From: an uncultured Emergencia sp.
GTDB taxonomy: Bacteria; Bacillota; Clostridia; Peptostreptococcales; Anaerovoracaceae
DNA length: 64,000 bases
Assembly (NCBI GenBank): GCA_904420065.1
Contig: CAJFTU010000041.1
Coordinates: 1 to 64,000 of the forward strand
Reading direction: 5' to 3'
The notes under the pieces were generated by a model that did no database searches, was not told the origin of the DNA, and worked only from the letters and a program-made list of their open reading frames with translations. Within the stretch, counting starts at the first letter, position 1, and each line of letters opens with the position of its first letter. A program made the position numbers and the translations under genes. Positions 26,686-39,412 of the stretch are shown in pieces.

Positions 26686-27990
26686 TTATTTTCCCATACT
26701 GTAATAGGCTTTCATCTCTTCCTCAGGAACCATGCTTCCGCCGGTCGCCCATAAAATGTGCGACGCGTTTTTCAGTTTATCTTTCAGGTTGTTCTTGATC
26801 AGATAGCCTTCAGCAGAAAGTACATGCCGCGGACCGGTAAAGCTGGCGCAGGCCGAAGGTTCAATAAACAGATCCTCCGTATCCGCCAGAGAAGACAGGA
26901 ATCCGTAAAGCTTTTCATCGTTAATGGTGAAACAGCCGTCCAACAGGGTCTCCATTATGCTGCCCACCAACTTGGAAGGACGGGATACCGCGAGACCGTC
27001 GGCTGCGGTTTTGCCATCCAGGCCCACATCGTTTACCGAAATCTGATCGTGAAGACCAGTCAGCATGCCCAGAGTCATACACGGAGCGTGGGTCGGCTCT
27101 GCAAAGAAAATGTGAACGTTCTCCCCAAAGATCTGCTTCAGTCCGAAAGCAACGCCACCCGGGGCTCCGCCTACGCCGCAAGGGATATAGACGAACACCG
27201 GATTATCCTCGTCACAGGCGATCATCTGCCGCTTAAACTGATCGGCCAGCCTCTTCGCCGCCACAGAATAACCTAAGAACAGATCGGCCGAAGCTTCGTC
27301 GTCTACGAAATGACACATGGGATCCGCCGCAGCTTCCCTGCGCCCTTCTTGTACCGCTCTCTGATAGTCATCCTGATATTCGATGACTTTTACGCCTTTC
27401 TGACGGAGCAGATCTTTCTTCCACTGCCTGGCGTCAGCCGACATATGCACGGTCACCTTGAAACCCAGCTTAGCGCTGATTATTCCAATGGACAGACCCA
27501 GATTACCGGTAGATCCGACAGCGACGCTGTACTCGCTGAATACCTGTTTAAATCTCTCCTCGTTAAGCACGGAATAATCGTCGGTCTCGGCCAGCATTCC
27601 CCGCTCAAAGGCGATCTTTTCCGCCAGCTTGAGCACTTCGTAGATGCCGCCCCGCGCCTTGATTGAGCCTGACACGGCGAGATGGCTGTCGCATTTGAGA
27701 AACAATCTGCCCGGAATTTCTCTCTCATAGTCCGATTCCAGTTTCTTTTTCATCTTGCTGATCTCTATCAGCGGAGATTCGATAATGCCGCCGCTCTCCT
27801 CCGTCTCCGGAAAAGCGGTTCTAATGTACGGCGCAAATCGAGCAAGGCGAGCCCCGGCATCGTCTATGTCCTGCATAGTAAACGGCAGTTCGGCCTCCTG
27901 ACCCACTTTTTCGTTGAGCCAGAAAACTTCATCACAGTTTATCATATCCTGTATCATAGGGTATTCTACGATGAGTTTATCGATATCCAT
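26686..27990 (-). CDS. dsdA: D-serine ammonia-lyase (D-serine dehydratase)
   Basis: About 434 residues. The PLP-binding Lys lies in [14 protein letters not shown], the phosphate-binding glycine loop is [12 protein letters not shown], and [18 protein letters not shown] and the end [13 protein letters not shown] are family segments. It converts D-serine to pyruvate and ammonia, feeding PFOR and removing a toxic D-amino acid. The start is uncertain: AAGGGAG suits ATG 27990 best, with 27996 and a TTG at 28029 as alternatives. No dsdC-type regulator is adjacent. Confidence 0.93.
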
Positions 27991-28029
27991 ACGCATTCTC
28001 CCTTCCATATCGCTGAAAATCTTTATCAA

Positions 28030-28660: not shown

Positions 28661-28688
28661 CAGACCCAATTCCGCGGTCTGTTTTTTT
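28661..28688 (+). terminator. terminator after the 78-residue gene
   Basis: CAGACC...GGTCTG (6-bp stem, 9-base loop) followed by seven T. Confidence 0.6.
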
Positions 28689-29736
28689 ATCCCCGAATCC
28701 TGTCCGCAAAAGCCGCGGCTTTTTCTTCAAGGCCGTCTATCTCAAGGATGCTTCCCGGATCGTTGGCGGTTTCCACCAGCGCGAATCGGCCGGGCAGGAT
28801 AAAATTCTTGTTCAGATTCATCGCCCCAAGGATCTGCTCCGCCACGATGTCGCCTCCGCTGTAGCCGGAAATCACTATGGCAAAAATCCGCTTCTTCGAA
28901 AAATCATTGGTGCGGAAAATCGCAGTCAGACGATTGATAAACGCGGTGATATTGGCGCTGACGGCATCGTTATAGTTTGGGCAGATCATGACCAGAGTAT
29001 CGCACTTTACGATAGCCGGATAGACCTTTTCCACCATGACGCCTCCGTAAAAGCATGTTCCGTTTTCGCCAAAATGCAGGCATTCCTCATAACTACACCC
29101 CCTGCAGTCCTGCAGGCTGCCGTTGCGCAGCGATACTTCTGTAATCTCTGCCTGGTTCTCAATCCGACTGCGGATAAGCTCCCAGAGCAGCAAGCTGTTA
29201 GACGTTTTTCTGCTGCTGGCGTGGACAGCCAGAATGTTAGGCCGTCTCGCCCCGGGCATTTTGAAATACAAGAGTTTCTTTATCAGCTCCTCCGTCTGTT
29301 TTTCGTAAGCGCCCAGGTTGTCCGTGCCCAACACCTTACCCATGACGTTAAAGTTATACAGAGAGCCGGTAGCTTCTATCAGCGGTTTTCCCGGAAAATC
29401 GCACCCGGCCATATTGGCCGAAAAAACCAGCCGTCTTGCCATACTCTTCGTGAAAAGTTCGCTGCTTCCATCCACAACTACGCCGGCGCAGCATCCGGCA
29501 AGACAGTCCGGATGGCTCAAAATGCACTCCAGCATGCGCCAGCACTCCATATTGTTCCCCGCTTCGGTAAGGCATACGGCGAACAGCAGCCTTTCTCCCC
29601 GTAAATCGATACTCTCCAGCTCTTCGGCCTTCAGAATATATCGAACCGGTACATTTTCCAGCGCCTTGGCCAACACCCGATCCATGCGTCCTTCCCGATG
29701 GAATTCACTGCAAAAAGGTTTGATTACCGTGAGCAT
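28687..29736 (-). CDS. flavodoxin-fold NAD(P)H-dependent FMN reductase-like protein with extra N-terminal domain
   Basis: 349 residues. The C-terminal half (about 165-349) is a flavodoxin-like NAD(P)H:FMN oxidoreductase domain with the FMN phosphate loop HASSRKTSNSLLLWEL and CPNYNDAVSANITAFINRL. It also has a Cys-rich insert DCRGCSYEECLHF, as in iron-sulfur flavoproteins, though it lacks the full cluster spacing. The N-terminal half (1-160) is an unassigned alpha/beta domain. Fourth and last gene of the operon starting with the sigma54 activator; GAGAGGTG lies before ATG 29736. Likely redox role, substrate unknown. Confidence 0.65.
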   Translation of the reverse strand: MLTVIKPFCSEFHREGRMDRVLAKALENVPVRYILKAEELESIDLRGERLLFAVCLTEAGNNMECWRMLECILSHPDCLAGCCAGVVVDGSSELFTKSMARRLVFSANMAGCDFPGKPLIEATGSLYNFNVMGKVLGTDNLGAYEKQTEELIKKLLYFKMPGARRPNILAVHASSRKTSNSLLLWELIRSRIENQAEITEVSLRNGSLQDCRGCSYEECLHFGENGTCFYGGVMVEKVYPAIVKCDTLVMICPNYNDAVSANITAFINRLTAIFRTNDFSKKRIFAIVISGYSGGDIVAEQILGAMNLNKNFILPGRFALVETANDPGSILEIDGLEEKAAAFADRIRG

Positions 29737-29742
29737 GTCCTG

Positions 29743-30717
29743 TCACCTCTCCATACCGCACAAGTTCAGATAAGCGTTTTTAATTCTCCGGTACAGAGAA
29801 TCGCACAGAGGCAGATCCTCATATCTGGACCCTTCTTCCGTCATACGATTTTTAATTCCAAGAAAAGCTCCCTTTTCCCGATCGCCCAGATACAGCGAAC
29901 TGTAGTGCCACTGCCCCCGCATAGTGAGAATAATGGAAATCGCCGCCGAGGACAGCGCCGGCGCGATGTACGGCTTATAGCCCAATTCCCTGACCTGCAT
30001 ATTGGCATTCACCGTCAGTTTTGTCAGCTCGCGGGAAACGGCGTCGTCATAGTCCTCGATGCTGTCTGCAATGACCAAATCCTCTCCGTGAGGTCCGAAA
30101 GCCCGGCCTTCTCTGACATACCGGGCGAAGCGTGGATTTTTCTTTCCGTAATAGAGCGCTCTGGCGTTCATAACCCCAAGACCGTAACCCTGAACCTGCC
30201 ATGCCTGGCAGCCGGCGCTGTCCAGAAATGCCCTGCACAGAGGATCTACAGGATCGGAAACAACAGCGACCAGCCCTCTGTAGCCGGATTGGGCCGCCAA
30301 ACGGCCGTACTCCCTGATCAGCTCGCTGTTGGCCGAGAGCTGTGCCATACGTACGTCGCCCTCCGCGCCCAGAGCCGGCACGCCCTTCGAAGCGCAGAAG
30401 ACGAACACATCACAGCTGAACAGCTCTTCTCTGGTAATTAACCGTATTTCCGGAAGCTCTGCCTGGCCAAAGGGGTAGCAGATCTGGTTCATCTCCTGCT
30501 CCAGCCTCCTCATATTTGCCTCCGACAGATCCCAGATGCCGATGGACGAAATACAGTCTCCGCCCAGAAGCCGAAGTCCCATCAGCACTGTAGTCCCCAC
30601 GTCGCCCAGTGCAACGATGTTCACTCTGTTTTTCCCGTTGAGTCTGACAGGACAGCCGTCCAGCGAAAGCGGCTGCTCGATTCCGGCTTCCTGCCAAAGA
30701 TTTTCGATTTTCTTCAT
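29743..30717 (-). CDS. malate/lactate dehydrogenase-like NAD-dependent protein (divergent)
   Basis: 324 residues. A Rossmann segment (VNIVALGDVGTTVLMGL, about 32-48), DVFVFCASKGVP, VVSDPVDPLC in place of NPVD, and AFGPHGEDLVIADS with the catalytic-type His resemble the lactate/malate dehydrogenase family. Substrate-specifying residues differ, so it may act on another 2-hydroxy acid or be regulatory. The Gly motif GDVGTT keeps two glycines. It lies 5 bases after the 1590-residue gene and 6 bases before the flavodoxin-fold gene. Confidence 0.65.
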   Translation of the reverse strand: MKKIENLWQEAGIEQPLSLDGCPVRLNGKNRVNIVALGDVGTTVLMGLRLLGGDCISSIGIWDLSEANMRRLEQEMNQICYPFGQAELPEIRLITREELFSCDVFVFCASKGVPALGAEGDVRMAQLSANSELIREYGRLAAQSGYRGLVAVVSDPVDPLCRAFLDSAGCQAWQVQGYGLGVMNARALYYGKKNPRFARYVREGRAFGPHGEDLVIADSIEDYDDAVSRELTKLTVNANMQVRELGYKPYIAPALSSAAISIILTMRGQWHYSSLYLGDREKGAFLGIKNRMTEEGSRYEDLPLCDSLYRRIKNAYLNLCGMER

Positions 30718-30722
30718 GCTCT

Positions 30723-33700
30723 CTATCCTTTCATTCTGAGTCGGATCAGTCTTTCGATATCGTTCTCCACATATACCGAAGGGGCGAGGTTTTCATCGTA
30801 GCTGATTCCCTCGCCCACATCCGGCCGGCGGGGATAGGAGATCACCTCGCCCAGCCTCTTCAGGGTCAGCTTCTTCTCGAAGGTCGCCTGATACTCCCGT
30901 TCCAGCACCTTCAGAATATCCCTGGCATTTTCCAGGCAGGTCATCGAATAGTTGAAGACCGCTTCCCGCTCGCCGCCCCGAATAAAGGTCGGAGAGGTGT
31001 ACGGCAGAATCAGGTTTATCGAAACGTCGCTGTCCTTGTCTATGCTGTCGCCTCCGATAAACGGATAGCTGTCCTTCTCGTTGATCCACACCTTCAGCGT
31101 CGGCAGGAAGTACGCGCTCTCCACGCTCCGATTCCGCACTGTCATCAGATCGCGGGCATTGCCGGTGAGAACGCCTACGATGATTTCCTTTACTTCCACC
31201 TGATTTCGCTTCAGTATCGGATCGATGATGTTCATCCGATATCCCTTGTGCAGCAGATCGTCGATGAGAATAATCGGACGGTTAAAGGACTTTATAGTCT
31301 TGGCCTGATTGTCGAGGGCCGAATAGTTTTTCGATTCCGCTATGGTAAAGTGATCCAGGCTGCTGTTGAAATATTTTTCCGTGTGAAGGGCTTTGGTCAC
31401 GGTGTTGGGAACCACCACATCGGCCAGCGCTTTACCGAAAGGCACCGACATGTACGGTCCCCTTTTGCCGTTTTTGGACGGCTGCGTGGATACGTTGTTC
31501 AGTTCCGCCACCTTGTTGATGATCTTGTTGTGCACCGCACTGGTATTGAAAGAAAGAACCAGCTGTCCCGGATAAATCTCCGTAAGTACGCGTAGAAGCC
31601 GGCTGTGAGCTTCATCGATGGCTTTCAGCACTTCAGCGTTTTTATTCAGCGGATTTTTGATCACTGTTTCCACATCCCTGAAAATGATGATCGGCGATTT
31701 CATATCCACTGCATAAATCGGATGTTCGCTTCCCGGATCGGCAATGTTTACAAATCCCTGTTTTCTCAGCGCTTCTATGACGCGGTGATTGAGTCCGGCC
31801 CTGTCCACCGGATTGTAGATTACATAGGCGAAATCCCGGGCTACCAGCTCGGTCAGAATCTCCGTGATCACGATCTGACTCATATTGGATATATTTCTTC
31901 CCTTTCCAGAAAAGAAAGCGCCGATCACGGCAATTCCTCCTGCCGCCCTTTCCCGAATCCGCGCCGCGATGGCCGGATCGCTAAATTCTTCCAACAGGTC
32001 ACTGGTCTCCACTCGGTGCGCTGCGGCAAAAGCGGCCATCCGCTTTTGCCGCACGCCGCTTTCAATATACAGCGTCCGAACTCCCGGATCCGCTAAATAC
32101 CGCTCAAGATTGGACATATCATAGCCCCGGTGAATCATCTCGTCCCTTATACTGTCCAGGCAGTCTGCCTCTCGGTGCACGTATGGGCTGATTCGTATCT
32201 CCTTGGCCTGGAGCACATGCTTATACGCCGGTTCCCGGAGATAGAGGTTGTAATCGTAGATGTAATTCTGCGCCACCGTATCGATCAGATTTGAGATATC
32301 CCTATTTAAATCAATATTTTCTCTTATCCTGGTCGAACTGATGTCTTCGTAATACTTCTGCAGCGTCAGACTGACCACCTTTCCCGTAATCGGATAAGGC
32401 TTCTCTTCCCCGCTCTCTCTCCTCTGCTCGCTGGATTCTCTGGCAAAAGCGATGTGATTGAGCGAGTGAATCGAATACTCCTGCGGCGGAGCTTTATAGC
32501 AGGATGCATTCTTGATCACGTCGGTTCCCACGGCGATATAGAGCTCCTTGCCTGCAAATATGTCCCGCAGCCGTTTGAGATCTCCGGGATTTGCAATATT
32601 CACCGGTATATCCTCCGGAAAAACAAATATGTCGTCCTCGTCGGCCACAGTCATGGTCATAATTCTCCGCCGCTGCAGACGGGGCTGTGTATTCTTTGAC
32701 CAGGAAAATTCATCCAAAGCAAGATACACCTCGAATCCCATATCTCTTATGGTCGTAGCCACGGCCTTGTGCCCCAGACTGAACGGATCGAAAGTTCCCG
32801 GAAAGAATGCTACCTTTTTCTTCTCTTCAAAGGAAAATGCTCCGGCTTCCGCCTGATACTGGCCGATATACCGATAAATATGATTGAGAACTGCCGCGTT
32901 GTTGTAGAAATCCAACTCGTTTTCTTCTTTTTCATCGAGCAGGGTCATCAACTTTTTGTAACAGTGACCAAACAGTTCCGTCTTTGCCGCAAGGGACATA
33001 CCGTTGCTGCCAAAAACGTGAATACCCAGAGTCCAGAAGGCTTCCTGCGAACTCAGCCTGTTGTAGCCCGCAAAAGCTTTGATGATCAGATTCAGCAGCC
33101 GGAAGCGTCTTGCCTCGTGTGCCTGAGCGCTCTCGACAAATCTGCCTTTGTAGATCGAGTAGTTCTCCACCATCACGCCCAGTGTGTTAATCACGGAAGA
33201 CACCGACTTTTCGTTTCCCGTTTCAAGGATTTTCTGCAGTTCATATATAGACTCATCCAGCTCTTTTGGAGGAAGATAAAGCATGATCACTCCGAGATAA
33301 TCGGGTATATACTTGGAAAACTGATAGTCGCCCAGTTCCAGTCCGTTAAACAGCTCTACAGTCAGTTCGTTTCTCTGCTCCAGCGGCATCTTCCCGATTA
33401 TGGTCAGAAGGCCCTCGCCGGCCGCTCTTCTCACCGTAACGGTTTCGCTGACCTTGATCAGATTGGACAGGTGAGTGGCGACGTGAAGCATGGTGCCCCG
33501 ATCCTGTCCATCCTCTATGTGTTTCAGCATAAAGGAGATATTGGCCACTTTCTGAATCCACGGCGTTCCCGTCTTCAGATCATCCAAAAACATCACAGCC
33601 AATTCTTCCTCAAAGGATTTTTCATCTTCGGGAATATCCATGATCTTTCGAAGATCCCTCTCATATCGATCATAGCCGTATTGTTCAAAGAAATGCAGTC

Positions 33701-35495
33701 CGGCCTTGAGTACGGCGATATCCACACTTTTCCCGTGTTTTCCATATATGGCGGAAAGAAAGTCCTTGATTCGCTGCAGAAAGCTTTCCGTACAGATTTG
33801 GGGATTGATGACCATAGCCGTATCGAGGAGAATCATCATCTCTGCATCCGTTCTTTTTTCGGCATCATAGTAGGTTTCCAGAATATCGAAATAGTTATAT
33901 CGACAGGAGACCTTGCAATTGTTCAATACGGCTTTTGCAAAGCTGTCCAGAGTGTTGGAAATCCACTTCTTGTGCTGCTCCGTCAGTTTGTAGTCCGGAT
34001 GAATGATCTTATCCAGATATTCTCTCCAAAGAGACAGATTGTTGATTAGACGATCCGGCAAAACGATGTCCGTAGGCACTTCTTTCTTATATTCATCGCT
34101 GAAGCCGGCCACGATGCGGCCCATAATTATGGCTGACTGGCTCCGGATATCACTCTCTTTGTGGGCGAGCAGCTCATAGAGAAACTTCAGCGTCATCAGC
34201 TTCTGCTTTTCCGTCATATAGGTGGAATATTCGCCGAATATGCTCACATAGGTCCGCAGGTTTTTCCACTGCCTCTCGCTCCGCGCCGCTTCGATCAGGC
34301 TTCCGAATTCGCTGTCGGCGTGAAAGCGGCTCATCAGGCGTATGTTGTGGCCAATGGCGCTGAACTTGAGCTGATCCACAACCTCCTGACCGCTGAGCAG
34401 AACCTTTTCCCTTCTGCGAGGTCTGGGCGCTTCTTTCGGTTCCCGGGCAAAATCAGCCGGCAGTGCCGTCGTCACGCCTTTTTCCTCCATATATCGCTCA
34501 AAGTCCTTCAGCTTCCCGTATACTTTCTGATATCTCAGCTCTTTGGCCTCGTCCACATCGTCCAGTTTACCGAGAATCACATCGAAAGCCTCATCCAGAC
34601 TGTAAAAATGAACGATCTCTTCGCCCTGTTCATTTCTGCTGCTCTTCACGCGAAAATCGGCATAGATCAGCAGCAGTGATTCTACGGACAGATTTTCCAG
34701 CTCCAGATCCCAAGTGGAATGGTTGGCCGCAATGTGGCCGATGGTCGGCATATCGAATCGGTTGTAGCACAGATCCGTATAGTAATAGTGGAGATAAGGA
34801 ATTCGCATCTCTTCACTTTTGCGGCATCCGTATTTACCGATGTCATGGCCTGCAGCAGCACCGGAAACTATCCCCAGATCCACGGGAACGCCTACTTTCT
34901 CCAGCTGTCTGGCCGCAAACATAGCTACATAGTGTACGCCGCTGATATGACCGAGAGTATTGAACGGCGTAATATCGATGCCGATGCGCATGAACTCGTA
35001 GACGTACCTGCTTTTGACCATACGGTGCAGTCTGCAGTATTCCTCAGAATAACCCTTCTCCTCAATTTCGCTGTCTGAGAGGAAAATCATATCCTTTGTC
35101 GGGTCAAAAGGAAGATATTTCTTTTCGTAGCTGAATACGCCTCTGAAAAGTTGAAGAATGCAGATTCTTCCCATCCTGTACCGCTCGCTGCCCTCGGGCT
35201 GCCCCATATGCGGAAAAAGCTGCCAAAGCACATACGCGTAGCAATGCTTCAGCCAGCCCATTTTTGGTTCATCCGCTAACTCATCCATATACCTGCGGGC
35301 GCAGTCCAGAAGATCCGCCGAGTGAAATCTTCCATCCGGACCGGCGCAGGCTCCGATTTCATCGGCCAGATTTTGAAGTCCTCCCTTTCGCAGCTTCTCC
35401 TCCATCGCCTTTCGGTTGAGTCCGATTTCCTTTAAAAAGCCTTTTTCAAGAAAGGCCCGATGCATTTCGTCATAGATCAATAATTCTTTTTTCAT
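30723..35495 (-). CDS. 1590-residue multidomain protein: HD domain, helical repeats, NadD-like nucleotidyltransferase, phosphoribosyltransferase-like domain
   Basis: Visible parts in order. An HD phosphohydrolase-like domain (about 178-285) with His183, GHD at 216-218 and HIAANH at 254-259. A long helical, HEAT-like region (about 370-880). A nicotinate-nucleotide-adenylyltransferase-like domain (about 890-1080) with FFPGTFDPFSLGHKA and ISSTRIR. A possible GNAT-like segment (about 1110-1250). A phosphoribosyltransferase-like domain (about 1290-1490) with the PRPP-loop-like PIILIDDLLHKGYRM. It is the second gene of the operon, 3 bases after the sigma54 activator. The combination suggests making or recycling of a nucleotide or dinucleotide cofactor, but no reaction can be assigned. 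It is a single uninterrupted frame. Confidence 0.7.
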   Translation of the reverse strand: MKKELLIYDEMHRAFLEKGFLKEIGLNRKAMEEKLRKGGLQNLADEIGACAGPDGRFHSADLLDCARRYMDELADEPKMGWLKHCYAYVLWQLFPHMGQPEGSERYRMGRICILQLFRGVFSYEKKYLPFDPTKDMIFLSDSEIEEKGYSEEYCRLHRMVKSRYVYEFMRIGIDITPFNTLGHISGVHYVAMFAARQLEKVGVPVDLGIVSGAAAGHDIGKYGCRKSEEMRIPYLHYYYTDLCYNRFDMPTIGHIAANHSTWDLELENLSVESLLLIYADFRVKSSRNEQGEEIVHFYSLDEAFDVILGKLDDVDEAKELRYQKVYGKLKDFERYMEEKGVTTALPADFAREPKEAPRPRRREKVLLSGQEVVDQLKFSAIGHNIRLMSRFHADSEFGSLIEAARSERQWKNLRTYVSIFGEYSTYMTEKQKLMTLKFLYELLAHKESDIRSQSAIIMGRIVAGFSDEYKKEVPTDIVLPDRLINNLSLWREYLDKIIHPDYKLTEQHKKWISNTLDSFAKAVLNNCKVSCRYNYFDILETYYDAEKRTDAEMMILLDTAMVINPQICTESFLQRIKDFLSAIYGKHGKSVDIAVLKAGLHFFEQYGYDRYERDLRKIMDIPEDEKSFEEELAVMFLDDLKTGTPWIQKVANISFMLKHIEDGQDRGTMLHVATHLSNLIKVSETVTVRRAAGEGLLTIIGKMPLEQRNELTVELFNGLELGDYQFSKYIPDYLGVIMLYLPPKELDESIYELQKILETGNEKSVSSVINTLGVMVENYSIYKGRFVESAQAHEARRFRLLNLIIKAFAGYNRLSSQEAFWTLGIHVFGSNGMSLAAKTELFGHCYKKLMTLLDEKEENELDFYNNAAVLNHIYRYIGQYQAEAGAFSFEEKKKVAFFPGTFDPFSLGHKAVATTIRDMGFEVYLALDEFSWSKNTQPRLQRRRIMTMTVADEDDIFVFPEDIPVNIANPGDLKRLRDIFAGKELYIAVGTDVIKNASCYKAPPQEYSIHSLNHIAFARESSEQRRESGEEKPYPITGKVVSLTLQKYYEDISSTRIRENIDLNRDISNLIDTVAQNYIYDYNLYLREPAYKHVLQAKEIRISPYVHREADCLDSIRDEMIHRGYDMSNLERYLADPGVRTLYIESGVRQKRMAAFAAAHRVETSDLLEEFSDPAIAARIRERAAGGIAVIGAFFSGKGRNISNMSQIVITEILTELVARDFAYVIYNPVDRAGLNHRVIEALRKQGFVNIADPGSEHPIYAVDMKSPIIIFRDVETVIKNPLNKNAEVLKAIDEAHSRLLRVLTEIYPGQLVLSFNTSAVHNKIINKVAELNNVSTQPSKNGKRGPYMSVPFGKALADVVVPNTVTKALHTEKYFNSSLDHFTIAESKNYSALDNQAKTIKSFNRPIILIDDLLHKGYRMNIIDPILKRNQVEVKEIIVGVLTGNARDLMTVRNRSVESAYFLPTLKVWINEKDSYPFIGGDSIDKDSDVSINLILPYTSPTFIRGGEREAVFNYSMTCLENARDILKVLEREYQATFEKKLTLKRLGEVISYPRRPDVGEGISYDENLAPSVYVENDIERLIRLRMKG

Positions 35496-35498
35496 CTT

Positions 35499-37589
35499 TT
35501 ATAACCCGTGTTTCAATTTCTTTCTCGCGAAAGTGGTCTGTGGCAGTTCCAGGAACTCCGCGGCCTTTCGCGTGGTCTTTTCCCGCTTAAGCGCGTATTC
35601 GATAATCTGTTTTTCCTGACGATCCATCAGCTGATGAAAATCCACTTTGCTGCTGCCGTCAAGCTGTTTCTTTATATTGATGACCATGTCGCCGAAGGTG
35701 TTTTCGCTGAGGATGTCCTCCACCTCGGAACCGGTAATGACGTTCCCCCGGCTGCTGATCACCAGTCGGTGCACAATATTCTCCAGTTCTCTGACGTTGC
35801 CCGGCCAGCTGTATTCGTACAGACAGTTCAGCGCCTCCGGGGAGAGTTCTTTGCTGATCTTGTACTTCTGCGCCCAGTTTTGAACAAAAGACTCAGCCAG
35901 GCACAGTATATCTTCCCGGCGCTCTCTCAGCGGCGGAACTTCGATCTTGCAGATGTTCAGCCGATAATACAGGTCTTCTCTGAATTTTCCCTGATCGACC
36001 AGTTCCTTCAGCGACACGTTATTGGCTGCAATCACTCTGACATTTACCGATACCTGTCTGGTGCCTCCTACCCGATAGAACTGATTCTCCTGCAGAACGC
36101 GAAGAAGTTTGGACTGCATATTCATGGACAGTGTCCCGATTTCGTCTAAAAAAAGAATTCCGTTGTCTGCCATTTCAAAGTAACCCGGCTTTCCGCCTGA
36201 ACTTGCGCCGGTAAACGCCCCGGACTCGTATCCGAAGAATTCGGATTCGGCAAGGGATTCGGCTATGGTAGCGCAGTTGATCTTTATGCACGGACAACCG
36301 TGTCTCTCACTGTTCTGGTGGATCAGCGAAAGGACCTTTTCTTTTCCGACACCGGTTTCACCCTGGATGATCACATTGCAGTCGTATCGGGCTACATTGA
36401 GAACCTCTTCAACCATCTGTCTGGTCACCGGGCTCTGATAGATGAATCCGTCCTCTCTGCCCGCCGCTCCAAGAGCTATACTCCTGGCTCTGCCCGCCGA
36501 AACCTTCGTTTTCTTTTTGGCCCGGGCATAAGCCTGATCCACAGCTTCCAACCTGTCCCGTATATCTCTGACGATCTTCAGCGCAAACTCCGGACAATCG
36601 CGTATGTACTGGTCGGAAGCGTGCATGGAAACGATCTTGCCTATGGATTCGGCCACAATTTGGGCCTGAAGGTAGTGATTCAGCACGGAACTGAAGAAAA
36701 TATCCCCAAACGGTCTGACCATCATAACGGCCAGCGTCTCCGCTCCAAAGATATCGTCGGCGACAATCACCTGATCCACGTCAGTCAGATGAGAAGCCTC
36801 GCGCTGAAATTGCTCATAGGTCTCAACCGGCAGAGTCAAATCTACAAAGCAGACCGATTCGATCAGCGGTTTCATGACGTTTTCTATTTCATCTCGTTTA
36901 AGCAGTTCTTTGGCGTCCTTGTCTATAACCGCAGTGATCGAACATCTGTATCCCATCCCCTCTCTGACTGCCGCCGCATAGAGCAGGACAGTAAATGCGT
37001 TTCTGCCGATTACAACGATGTTTTTGTTCTCATGTTCTGCCGCCAACTGATACGCACCAAACAGACTGCCGACTTCGTCTATCGCTGCCAAAGCTCCCGC
37101 GGACGGCAGAATGCGGTCAAAAGGGCAGATTGACGACGTCTCAAACAGGATTGCATACCCCTCGCAGACGATCTGTCCGTAATTGTAGTCAATCTCCTTA
37201 ATGCTGCTGATATAAATGGGAATACAAGTCAGGGAGGTGACGCAGCAGATGCGCTCGCCCGGATAAACCTCCGTCTCTGTCTCCATCTGCAGCTTCCGGC
37301 CCATTGCCTCCACTGTACCTGCCAGTATTCCCCCGCTTCCCGTAAAAGGATTGTGAAGCTTTCCTCTCTTTTCTATTATATCTGCTATCTTCAGCCTTAC
37401 TCTCTCTTCGTCGTAGCTGCAGCTGCTGCAGATCTGCTGAAAACTGTCCCATTCCAGCTGTATGCGTTCCAATTCAACCCGAAGTTCTCTTTCCCCAAGT
37501 TCTCTGCCGTTGTCGATTTTCCAGGCTGCCGCCGGTACCATCCCTTTAGGCTCCAACACCCGGCCCAATCCGTAGTTTTTTTCTGTCAT
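35499..37589 (-). CDS. sigma54-dependent activator with a 3,5-diaminohexanoate-dehydrogenase-like sensor domain
   Basis: 696 residues. Residues 6-340 align by eye with L-erythro-3,5-diaminohexanoate dehydrogenase (Kdd) of lysine fermenters: YGLGRVLEPKG, RGKLHNPFTGSGG (76-88) and EGYAILFE. The nucleotide loop is degenerate (VIGRNAFT at 193-200 instead of a GxxGxxG pattern), suggesting a sensor, not an enzyme. The AAA+ domain follows with Walker A GETGVGKE (410-417), the sigma54-contact GAFTGA (457-462) and Walker B ILFLDE (478-483). A Fis-type helix-turn-helix ends the protein (about 668-692). No clear ribosome-binding site lies near ATG 37589. First gene of a four-gene operon; divergent from an antiporter with a sigma54 promoter. 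Confidence 0.88.
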   Translation of the reverse strand: MTEKNYGLGRVLEPKGMVPAAAWKIDNGRELGERELRVELERIQLEWDSFQQICSSCSYDEERVRLKIADIIEKRGKLHNPFTGSGGILAGTVEAMGRKLQMETETEVYPGERICCVTSLTCIPIYISSIKEIDYNYGQIVCEGYAILFETSSICPFDRILPSAGALAAIDEVGSLFGAYQLAAEHENKNIVVIGRNAFTVLLYAAAVREGMGYRCSITAVIDKDAKELLKRDEIENVMKPLIESVCFVDLTLPVETYEQFQREASHLTDVDQVIVADDIFGAETLAVMMVRPFGDIFFSSVLNHYLQAQIVAESIGKIVSMHASDQYIRDCPEFALKIVRDIRDRLEAVDQAYARAKKKTKVSAGRARSIALGAAGREDGFIYQSPVTRQMVEEVLNVARYDCNVIIQGETGVGKEKVLSLIHQNSERHGCPCIKINCATIAESLAESEFFGYESGAFTGASSGGKPGYFEMADNGILFLDEIGTLSMNMQSKLLRVLQENQFYRVGGTRQVSVNVRVIAANNVSLKELVDQGKFREDLYYRLNICKIEVPPLRERREDILCLAESFVQNWAQKYKISKELSPEALNCLYEYSWPGNVRELENIVHRLVISSRGNVITGSEVEDILSENTFGDMVINIKKQLDGSSKVDFHQLMDRQEKQIIEYALKREKTTRKAAEFLELPQTTFARKKLKHGL

Positions 37590-37804: not shown

Positions 37805-37820
37805 TGGCACAGTGTTTGCT
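37805..37820 (+). promoter_or_regulatory. sigma54 (-24/-12) promoter of NhaC antiporter 2
   Basis: TGGCAC-N5-TTGCT at 37805-37820 matches the sigma54 consensus TGGCAC-N5-TTGCW exactly, with the GG and GC pairs at the required spacing. The start would be about 37832, 75 bases before the antiporter ATG. The sigma54 activator gene is divergent and next door. Confidence 0.88.
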
Positions 37821-37906
37821 ATAACTAAAACTAAAGTATTATTTACTGCAATGATCAAATATTCTTCTGTTCTTTGAGCAGAAGAGGTAAAAGGAGAAAA
37901 GAAAGA

Positions 37907-39412
37907 ATGAACTTTATCAAATCCGCAGTTAAATTTCTGCCGGTAATCGTCCTCGCCGGTCTGATGATATCCGGACAGGATGCACTGATCGCCGCGCCGA
38001 TTGCCGCGATTGCTGCTGTCATCGTCGCAAGGATTACAGAAAAACTCACCTTTAAGGACTGTATTGATGCGTCTATTTCCAGCGTAAGCAACATTATTGT
38101 GGCGCTCTTTATCCTGATGTTCGCCTATGCCATGGCAAGCGCTTTTATGTCCACAGGCGTAGGCGCGTCAGTCGTCAATATGGCGCTGTCACTGGGTATC
38201 ACAGCCAGGACAACAGCAGTCATTGGTCTGCTGGTTACCGCTATACTTTCCGTGGCTACCGGCACATCCTGGGGAACCTTCGCCGCATGCGCGCCGATCT
38301 TCCTCTGGTTGGTTCACATCGTTGACCCTAACAGCGCCGAAACAGGAAGTCTGCTTTTGACCACCTGCGCTATCGCAGGAGGAGCCTGCTTCGGAGACAA
38401 CATCGGACTGATCTCCGACACGACGATCGTTTCTTCCGGTATTCAGGGCGTAGAAGTTATAGATCGTATCCGTTCTCAGGGCGTATGGTCGGTAATGTGT
38501 CTGATTCTGGCCGCTATCTGCTTCTTTATCGCCGGTATTGCGATGGATCTCCCAAGCGAATCCGTCGTTGCCACAGGTGTAATGGATTCCGTACCGCAGA
38601 GCGCACTGGACTACCTGGCCAAAGAGAGGCCGGAGGCCATCGATCTTCTGAACCAGGTGCAGAACGGTGTAGCCTATTATATGATAGTCCCTCTGCTTCT
38701 GGTTATCGGTCTTGCTGTGGCAGGAGTAAACACTTTCGCCTGCATCGGATCCGGCATTGTCTCCGCTTATCTGCTCGGCATTCCGGCCGGTACCACTTCC
38801 TTTGCCGGAGGCGGCCTGCAGGAGTATCTGGACATGTGTATGGCAGGCTTTGCAGACGCCGGTTCCTGGGTTATCGTTATGATGATGTGGGTAGCTGCCT
38901 TCGGCGGCATCATGGGCAAAATGAAAGCCTTCGAACCGCTTTCCAGACTGATCGTAAAGATCTCTCACAACGTAAGACAACTGATGTTCTGCAACGGTTT
39001 GCTCTGCTGTGCCGGTAACGCCATTCTGTCCGACGAAATGGCTCAGATCGTAACCGTAGGACCGATCATCAAGGAGATAGCCGAGGAAAATATCGAGGGT
39101 TCCGAAGAGGATATGTACAAGATCAAGCTGAGAAACGCCACTTTTGGCGACGCCATGGGTGTATTCGGCTCCCAGCTGATTCCTTGGCATGTTTACCTGG
39201 GATTCTATGTCGGTATCGCGGCCAATGTCTACCCATTATTCGCTTTCAAAAATACACACTTTATTATGTTCAACTTCATGGCTATGATTGCTGTGGCATC
39301 ACTTCTGCTTCTGACTCTGACCGGCGCGGACAAATTTATCCCACTGTTCAGACTGCCGAGAGAACCGGAAGTAAGATTGAAAAAGAATGTACAGAAAAAC
39401 GAGGCTGCTTAA
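37907..39412 (+). CDS. NhaC-family antiporter 2, under sigma54 control
   Basis: 501 residues with about 12 membrane helices. Family segments include SVATGTSWGTFAACAPIF, GGACFGDNIGLISDTTI and, in the second half, FGDAMGVFGSQLIPWHVYL. It differs clearly from NhaC 1 and from the second-half motif of classical Na+/H+ exchangers, resembling members that carry amino acids. ATG 37907 follows AAAGGAGA; the frame extension to 37874 has no site. Given the Kdd-like sensor of its presumed activator, a Na+-coupled lysine or related amino-acid carrier is my inference. Confidence 0.8.
   Translation: MNFIKSAVKFLPVIVLAGLMISGQDALIAAPIAAIAAVIVARITEKLTFKDCIDASISSVSNIIVALFILMFAYAMASAFMSTGVGASVVNMALSLGITARTTAVIGLLVTAILSVATGTSWGTFAACAPIFLWLVHIVDPNSAETGSLLLTTCAIAGGACFGDNIGLISDTTIVSSGIQGVEVIDRIRSQGVWSVMCLILAAICFFIAGIAMDLPSESVVATGVMDSVPQSALDYLAKERPEAIDLLNQVQNGVAYYMIVPLLLVIGLAVAGVNTFACIGSGIVSAYLLGIPAGTTSFAGGGLQEYLDMCMAGFADAGSWVIVMMMWVAAFGGIMGKMKAFEPLSRLIVKISHNVRQLMFCNGLLCCAGNAILSDEMAQIVTVGPIIKEIAEENIEGSEEDMYKIKLRNATFGDAMGVFGSQLIPWHVYLGFYVGIAANVYPLFAFKNTHFIMFNFMAMIAVASLLLLTLTGADKFIPLFRLPREPEVRLKKNVQKNEAA

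Follow-up and report, generated by a model that had tools for sequence, protein, structure and literature searches.

A six-segment fusion protein with HD, HEAT and NMNAT domains and two co-encoded redox partners in anaerobic Firmicutes: a possible make-and-break nucleotide multi-enzyme

Results

The window (the whole 64,000-nucleotide stretch of DNA analysed here) encodes a fusion protein of 1590 residues, in which HD, HEAT-repeat, NMNAT (NadD-like), GNAT-fold and phosphoribosyltransferase (PRTase)-like segments are joined in one chain, and whose gene opens an operon shared with two redox partners. The explanation put forward here, tentatively, is that of a multi-enzyme which would make and break a nucleotide on a HEAT scaffold and would serve both partners, its gene being the leading one in a module of three. 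As a whole, three apparently active nucleotide-handling sites are found together with two invariant redox partners, in a combination that is common in anaerobic Firmicutes and is carried by many gut and sediment anaerobes. Should the fusion control a nucleotide cofactor or signal, it would open up a branch of the NAD-type metabolism of gut anaerobes that has yet to be mapped; through the partners, the operon offers a direct handle on its function.

Architecture and conservation of the fusion protein

The fusion gene (30723..35495, minus strand) is a single open reading frame (ORF) of 1590 codons plus a stop. From the N-terminus, the chain is made up of a helical region, an HD domain, HEAT repeats, an NMNAT domain, a GNAT fold and a PRTase-like domain, and it is spanned by two AlphaFold2 models taken together, which were obtained with alignments of 61 and 62 homologues and have a mean pLDDT of 84 and 90, respectively. 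The motifs listed in the original prediction were all located, namely GHD at residues 216-218, GTFDPFSLGH at 900-909, ISSTRIR at 1052-1058 and ILIDDLLHKG at 1409-1418. Concerning the four domains which that prediction described, profile and structure comparisons bear out the assignments as HD, helical repeat and NadD-like, and the PRTase-like one is likely; six segments are nevertheless counted here rather than four, because the chain also holds a GNAT-fold domain (about residues 1099-1272), which had been overlooked, and an N-terminal helical region (residues 1-140). The prediction did not mention the two operon partners either.

When the window protein alone was searched against Pfam, the sole match over the cut-off was PF01467 (3.8e-11, residues 897-1060). 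The HpaB_N and AP205_coat matches seen in the GNAT/PRTase part lie below the cut-off, occur in few members and were attributed to chance. At the whole-protein level, no named family was matched by the fusion in the profile libraries searched (Pfam and NCBIfam).

A random or spurious ORF is ruled out by 102 full-length homologues, which were aligned end to end and form the basis of the residue counts given below. An assembly fusion of separate genes was likewise rejected, because the same single-chain architecture recurs in many genera and in independent assemblies. Conservation along the chain is highest in the HD and NMNAT domains, and the active-site residues are still nearly invariant in homologues with identities as low as about 36%. 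In the HD, NMNAT and PRTase-like domains, the catalytic residues are almost perfectly kept among the 102 aligned homologues; the loss of these residues in most homologues, named beforehand as the refutation of an enzymatic role, is therefore not what the family displays.

Individual domains

The N-terminal helical region (residues 1-140; 35076..35495, minus strand) consists of helices in the AlphaFold2 model and is the least conserved of the structured parts, with zero columns at ≥98%. The HEAT-type helical repeat array (residues 370-888; 32832..34388, minus strand) was modelled by AlphaFold2 with a pLDDT of 90, and its closest structures are TOG, PP2A-A and the karyopherins (Z up to 16).

Between these two parts lies the HD domain (residues 141-345; 34461..35075, minus strand), in which each of the six ligands H183, H217, D218, H236, H259 and D280 is present in 102 of the 102 aligned homologues. 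Pfam HD was matched in 27 of 30 homologues, with a best value of 5.3e-6. According to a review of HD proteins (PMC8177086), such an extended six-residue set, which is also that of the diphosphatase YqeK, is diagnostic of a dinuclear site, and, judging from its residues, the domain is of the dinuclear type and a predicted hydrolase. The H..HD..H..H..D dinuclear pattern is shared with the YqeK Ap4A hydrolase (TIGR00488), but YqeK possesses an Arg at position -3 relative to its first His, a residue conserved in most HD phosphatases (PMC8177086), whereas the fusion has T180 at this place. The TIGR00488 model gave no match to the fusion at E up to 1 in the NCBIfam search, and the comparison of the HD domain with the YqeK profile was weak. 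The best profile match, with 89% probability and over the first half of the domain only, was to the HD-GYP phosphodiesterases, whose T..H and HDIGKxG stretches are shared by the fusion, but whose signature HHExxDGxGYP is absent and is replaced by NHSTWD at the aligned place. In the fold search made with the HEAT-containing model, the listed matches were filled by the HEAT part and have no bearing on the HD fold.

The NMNAT (NadD-like) adenylyltransferase domain (residues 891-1090; 32226..32825, minus strand) matched PF01467 in 61 of 61 homologues, and its AlphaFold2 model reached a Z of 16 against solved NadD structures. Within the ATP-site motif GTFDPFSLGH (32769..32798, minus strand), both H909 and S/T906 are found in 102/102 homologues: the first His of the HxGH motif is a Ser or Thr throughout, giving S/T-x-G/S-H, and only the second His is retained. 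The site may be of the T-x-G-H kind known from PPAT. GxD is present in about 101 of 102 homologues, as are (101/102 each) S1053, S1054 and R1058 of the ISSTRIR motif (32322..32342, minus strand). NadD (TIGR00482) thus shares with the fusion its fold, GTFDPF...H, GxD and ISSTxxR, but differs from it at the first His of HxGH and on the acceptor side, where the SYT and W of the genome's own NadD are replaced and a near-invariant DEFSWSK block (DEFSW being invariant) is found instead. Since this acceptor site is unlike that of NadD, NaMN cannot be assumed as the substrate. Among NCBIfam models, NadD is the nearest to the fusion, but the score is 41.6 bits vs. an equivalog cut-off of 112.45 for TIGR00482. 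The same genome encodes a canonical NadD (GTFDPFHVGH) adjoining YqeK and separate from the fusion; these ordinary genes rule out a housekeeping NadD, or housekeeping NAD synthesis, and the function of the fusion is therefore additional.

The GNAT-fold domain (residues 1099-1272; 31680..32201, minus strand) resembles RimI and NAA60 (Z 13.6 over 137-151 residues) as well as SbzI (Z 13.8). No acetyl-CoA loop of the form (R/Q)xxGx(G/A) was found between the fourth strand and the third helix in the aligned homologues, and just five of the 174 columns of the region reach ≥98%. An acetyltransferase role is unlikely for these two reasons, and binding of a ligand or a partner, rather than of acetyl-CoA, is the more probable function.

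As for the PRTase-like domain (residues 1285-1510; 30966..31643, minus strand), 31 of 35 homologues matched Pfam Pribosyltran (PF00156) with E values not above 1, the best being 6e-5, while the window's own segment gave an E of 0.042 and 13.6 bits vs. a cut-off of 26.3. Strands and helices alternate in the AlphaFold2 model of this part; the matches listed in the fold search with the C-terminal model were filled by NadD and GNAT structures and have no bearing on the PRTase fold. The PRPP-type motif ILIDDLLHKG (31242..31271, minus strand) is well kept, with D1412 in 101, D1413 in 97 and R1420 in 101 of 102 homologues. Compared with the motif hhhhDDxxxTGxT, the hydrophobic strand and the DD are present, whereas TGxT is replaced by KGYR (as HKGYR), i.e. 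by a non-canonical phosphate loop. Type I phosphoribosyltransferases (PF00156) share with the fusion the hydrophobic strand, the DD of the PRPP motif and the order of strands and helices, but they differ by this loop and by a long conserved loop of the fusion's own, VPFG..VPNTVTK.LHTEK. From these motifs and profile matches, the PRTase-like assignment is considered likely.

The three-gene operon

The fusion gene comes first, followed by a gene for a protein resembling lactate and malate dehydrogenases (LDH/MDH; partner 1) and one for an FMN-reductase-like flavoprotein (partner 2). Only 5 bases separate the stop of the fusion gene from partner 1; in the operon, genes start just behind the preceding stops, and a purine-rich stretch resembling a ribosome-binding site precedes each partner. 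Partner 1 (29743..30717, minus strand) is an LDH/MDH-like Rossmann dehydrogenase of the predicted NAD type, with profile matches to MDH and LDH down to 3.7e-10. In its alignment, the LDH catalytic His and both Arg are kept, and the Asp has become an invariant Met; since the catalytic Asp is missing, the use of a nicotinamide cofactor by this partner is itself presumed. In many lineages, partner 1 is extended at its N-terminus by about 90 residues, giving a length of about 400-420 aa (e.g. loci L113, L126 and L040), and it has 324 aa, without this extension, in the window's own clade. Partner 2 (28687..29736, minus strand) matches PF03358 at 3.8e-17, a family also matched by 21 of 21 homologues, and contains four invariant Cys, which suggest an Fe-S or redox cysteine site.

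Among 105 homologous loci, the three genes are complete in 94; eight of the other 11 stop at a contig edge, so that 94 of the 97 loci with enough flanking DNA are complete and three are true solo copies. Seeming absences of the partners were mostly due to contig ends or to partner ORFs masked by longer antisense ORFs. At the genome level, 24 of the 25 genomes with the fusion have partner 1 and 23 have partner 2, vs. none of the 266 others for either partner; the cases with a missing partner (G178 and G240) correspond to contig ends. Outside the three genes, the surroundings differ between lineages.

Broken NMNAT motifs were found in only two of the 102 homologues, namely in L039 (7197-12113), which reads TDIFDPFTTVH, NEQ and ILSCETK, and in L053 (7327-12222), which reads DASPAQIR. 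Both are partnerless extra copies with intact HD and PRTase motifs, and their genomes also hold a copy with intact motifs, which is partnered in G155 and apparently so across a contig break in G199. The two may be sub-functionalised paralogues. That NMNAT decay is confined to partnerless extra copies (n = 2) suggests a tie between NMNAT chemistry and the partners, although the third solo copy (L114) has an intact NMNAT motif.

Distribution and genomic surroundings

Homologues of the full-length type were found in 25 of the 291 genomes of the class, two of which hold a second copy, and the fusion is also present in members of the phylum that do not belong to this class. A contig scan with a single sequence as query gave no match, and the alignment as query recovered the relatives, which are encoded in at least 577 stretches of the public genome collection. 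Named hosts are Emergencia, Hornefia, Mogibacterium, Anaerovorax, Anaerotignum, Sedimentibacter, Megasphaera, Anaeroglobus and Eubacterium pyruvativorans, which are largely amino-acid or lactate fermenters.

Directly upstream, the gene at 35499-37589 (minus strand) encodes a sigma-54 activator with an N-terminal region resembling L-erythro-3,5-diaminohexanoate dehydrogenase (KDD; NF052381, 1.7e-42, below cut-off), an enzyme-like domain that may have been recruited as the regulator's sensor. A lysine-fermentation role for the fusion was rejected as a general link, because this regulator adjoins it only in the Emergencia clade (four loci). An NhaC-like antiporter ORF (37874-39412) is divergent from the activator gene, and 54 bases ahead of it lies a sigma-54-type promoter match, TGGCACAGTGTTTGCT (37805-37820, plus strand), a possible target of the adjacent activator; about one such match per window is expected by chance. 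Just downstream of the operon, a D-serine ammonia-lyase gene (26686-28029, minus strand) scores over its family cut-off, and a homologue is found close by in no more than a few close relatives. In 11 of 106 loci (e.g. L048, 14451-15797), belonging to two lineages, the operon has a gene for an ELFV-type (glutamate) dehydrogenase in its vicinity: in one lineage this gene is upstream and on the opposite strand, in the other downstream and on the same strand. Strong matches to HGD-D (E below 1e-110) show an enrichment among the fusion genomes, with 13 of 25 vs. 19 of the 266 others, kinship being ignored, and an obligate link to 2-hydroxyacyl-CoA dehydratase is ruled out because the congener G097 possesses the fusion without HGD-D. 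Finally, neither the fusion nor either partner matched a PADLOC defence model (E 0.01), on which ground a defence system was discarded.

Discussion

Catalysis, the substrate, the order of the steps and the cofactor role are what we infer from the domains, and they could be arranged as follows. The NMNAT domain would use ATP to adenylylate a mononucleotide-like acceptor, which would not simply be NaMN, and the PRTase-like domain might supply or recognise the ribose-phosphate end. The diphosphate link formed in this way would be hydrolysed by the HD domain, either for turnover or, following the example of NadD-YqeK, for proofreading. The dinucleotide under such control might be the redox cofactor on which the two partners depend, or else a modified NAD. 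Near-invariant HD ligands and NMNAT motifs, the strict three-gene linkage and the occurrence of decay in partnerless copies only argue for such a make-and-break enzyme; T180 in place of the HD-phosphatase Arg, the loss of the catalytic Asp in partner 1 and the solo copy with an intact NMNAT motif count against it. With the NadD acceptor residues lost and the PRTase loop atypical, either site may bind its ligand without turnover. The closed cycle of the original prediction, in which one nucleotide passes through all three enzyme-like domains, is a possible version of this scheme. Quite unlikely is its most far-reaching form, namely that the module makes, installs and recycles a new NAD-like dinucleotide cofactor, joined from a base and PRPP by the PRTase-like domain, adenylylated by NMNAT, hydrolysed by HD, and put to use in anaerobic fermenters by both partners, the LDH-like protein and the flavoprotein.

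Other readings share part of this evidence. A large HEAT array, a weakly conserved GNAT fold devoid of a CoA loop and an atypical PRTase loop could also belong to a scaffold with little or no catalysis, whose NMNAT, GNAT and PRTase-like folds would sense nucleotides (e.g. NAD, ATP or PRPP) and which would dock or regulate the dehydrogenase and the flavoprotein; the retention of HD and PRTase motifs in the two partnerless copies with a broken NMNAT fits this idea too. We regard it as doubtful, as near-invariant metal ligands and ATP-site residues in 102 divergent homologues suit catalysis better. The opposition of a synthase-like and a hydrolase-like site in one chain would equally be expected if NMNAT made, and HD broke, a dinucleotide signal tuning fermentation or the redox state, with the partners as read-outs. 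The six-ligand set of the Ap4A hydrolase YqeK and the half-domain match to HD-GYP phosphodiesterases point in that direction, but the search for known types of receptor or sensory domain was negative, the partners are redox proteins rather than regulators, and the genome already has YqeK, all of which leave signalling unlikely.

The scaffold architecture and the divergent small-molecule acceptor site are also what might be seen if NMNAT AMPylated a target protein, for instance partner 1 or the glutamate dehydrogenase encoded near some of the operons (the 11 loci mentioned above), and HD removed the group. This is very unlikely: the glutamate dehydrogenase link is restricted to few lineages, and we know of no case in which a protein AMPylator of the NMNAT fold is paired with an HD eraser. 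There is also little probability that the fusion is a specialised or backup NaMN/NMN adenylyltransferase with built-in proofreading, i.e. a long analogue of NadD-YqeK. In fold and profile, the NMNAT part is indeed closest to NadD, and the precedent exists (PMC9426524), but ordinary NadD and YqeK occur in the same genome, the NadD acceptor residues are altered, and the score is far beneath the equivalog cut-off.

Comparison with known systems

Each single domain is already known, as is the pairing of NMNAT and HD in one chain. No description of the fusion protein was found in the open-access papers searched; as far as these papers and the libraries show, the architecture of six parts, the divergence of the acceptor site and the nearly obligate partnership with two genes have not been described before. 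The closest precedent is the mycoplasma NadD-YqeK protein (JCVISYN3A_0380), the HD domain of which was reported to hydrolyse NaAD as well as wrong NaAD analogues (PMC9426524), and it is this precedent of NMNAT and HD in one chain that favours a make-and-break enzyme for the fusion. Both proteins combine an NMNAT adenylyltransferase with a six-ligand HD hydrolase domain in a single chain. NadD-YqeK, however, is of the 361-aa type, with NadD followed by HD and without HEAT, GNAT or PRTase parts, whereas the fusion has 1590 aa, places HD first, carries a different NMNAT acceptor site and is found alongside separately encoded NadD and YqeK.
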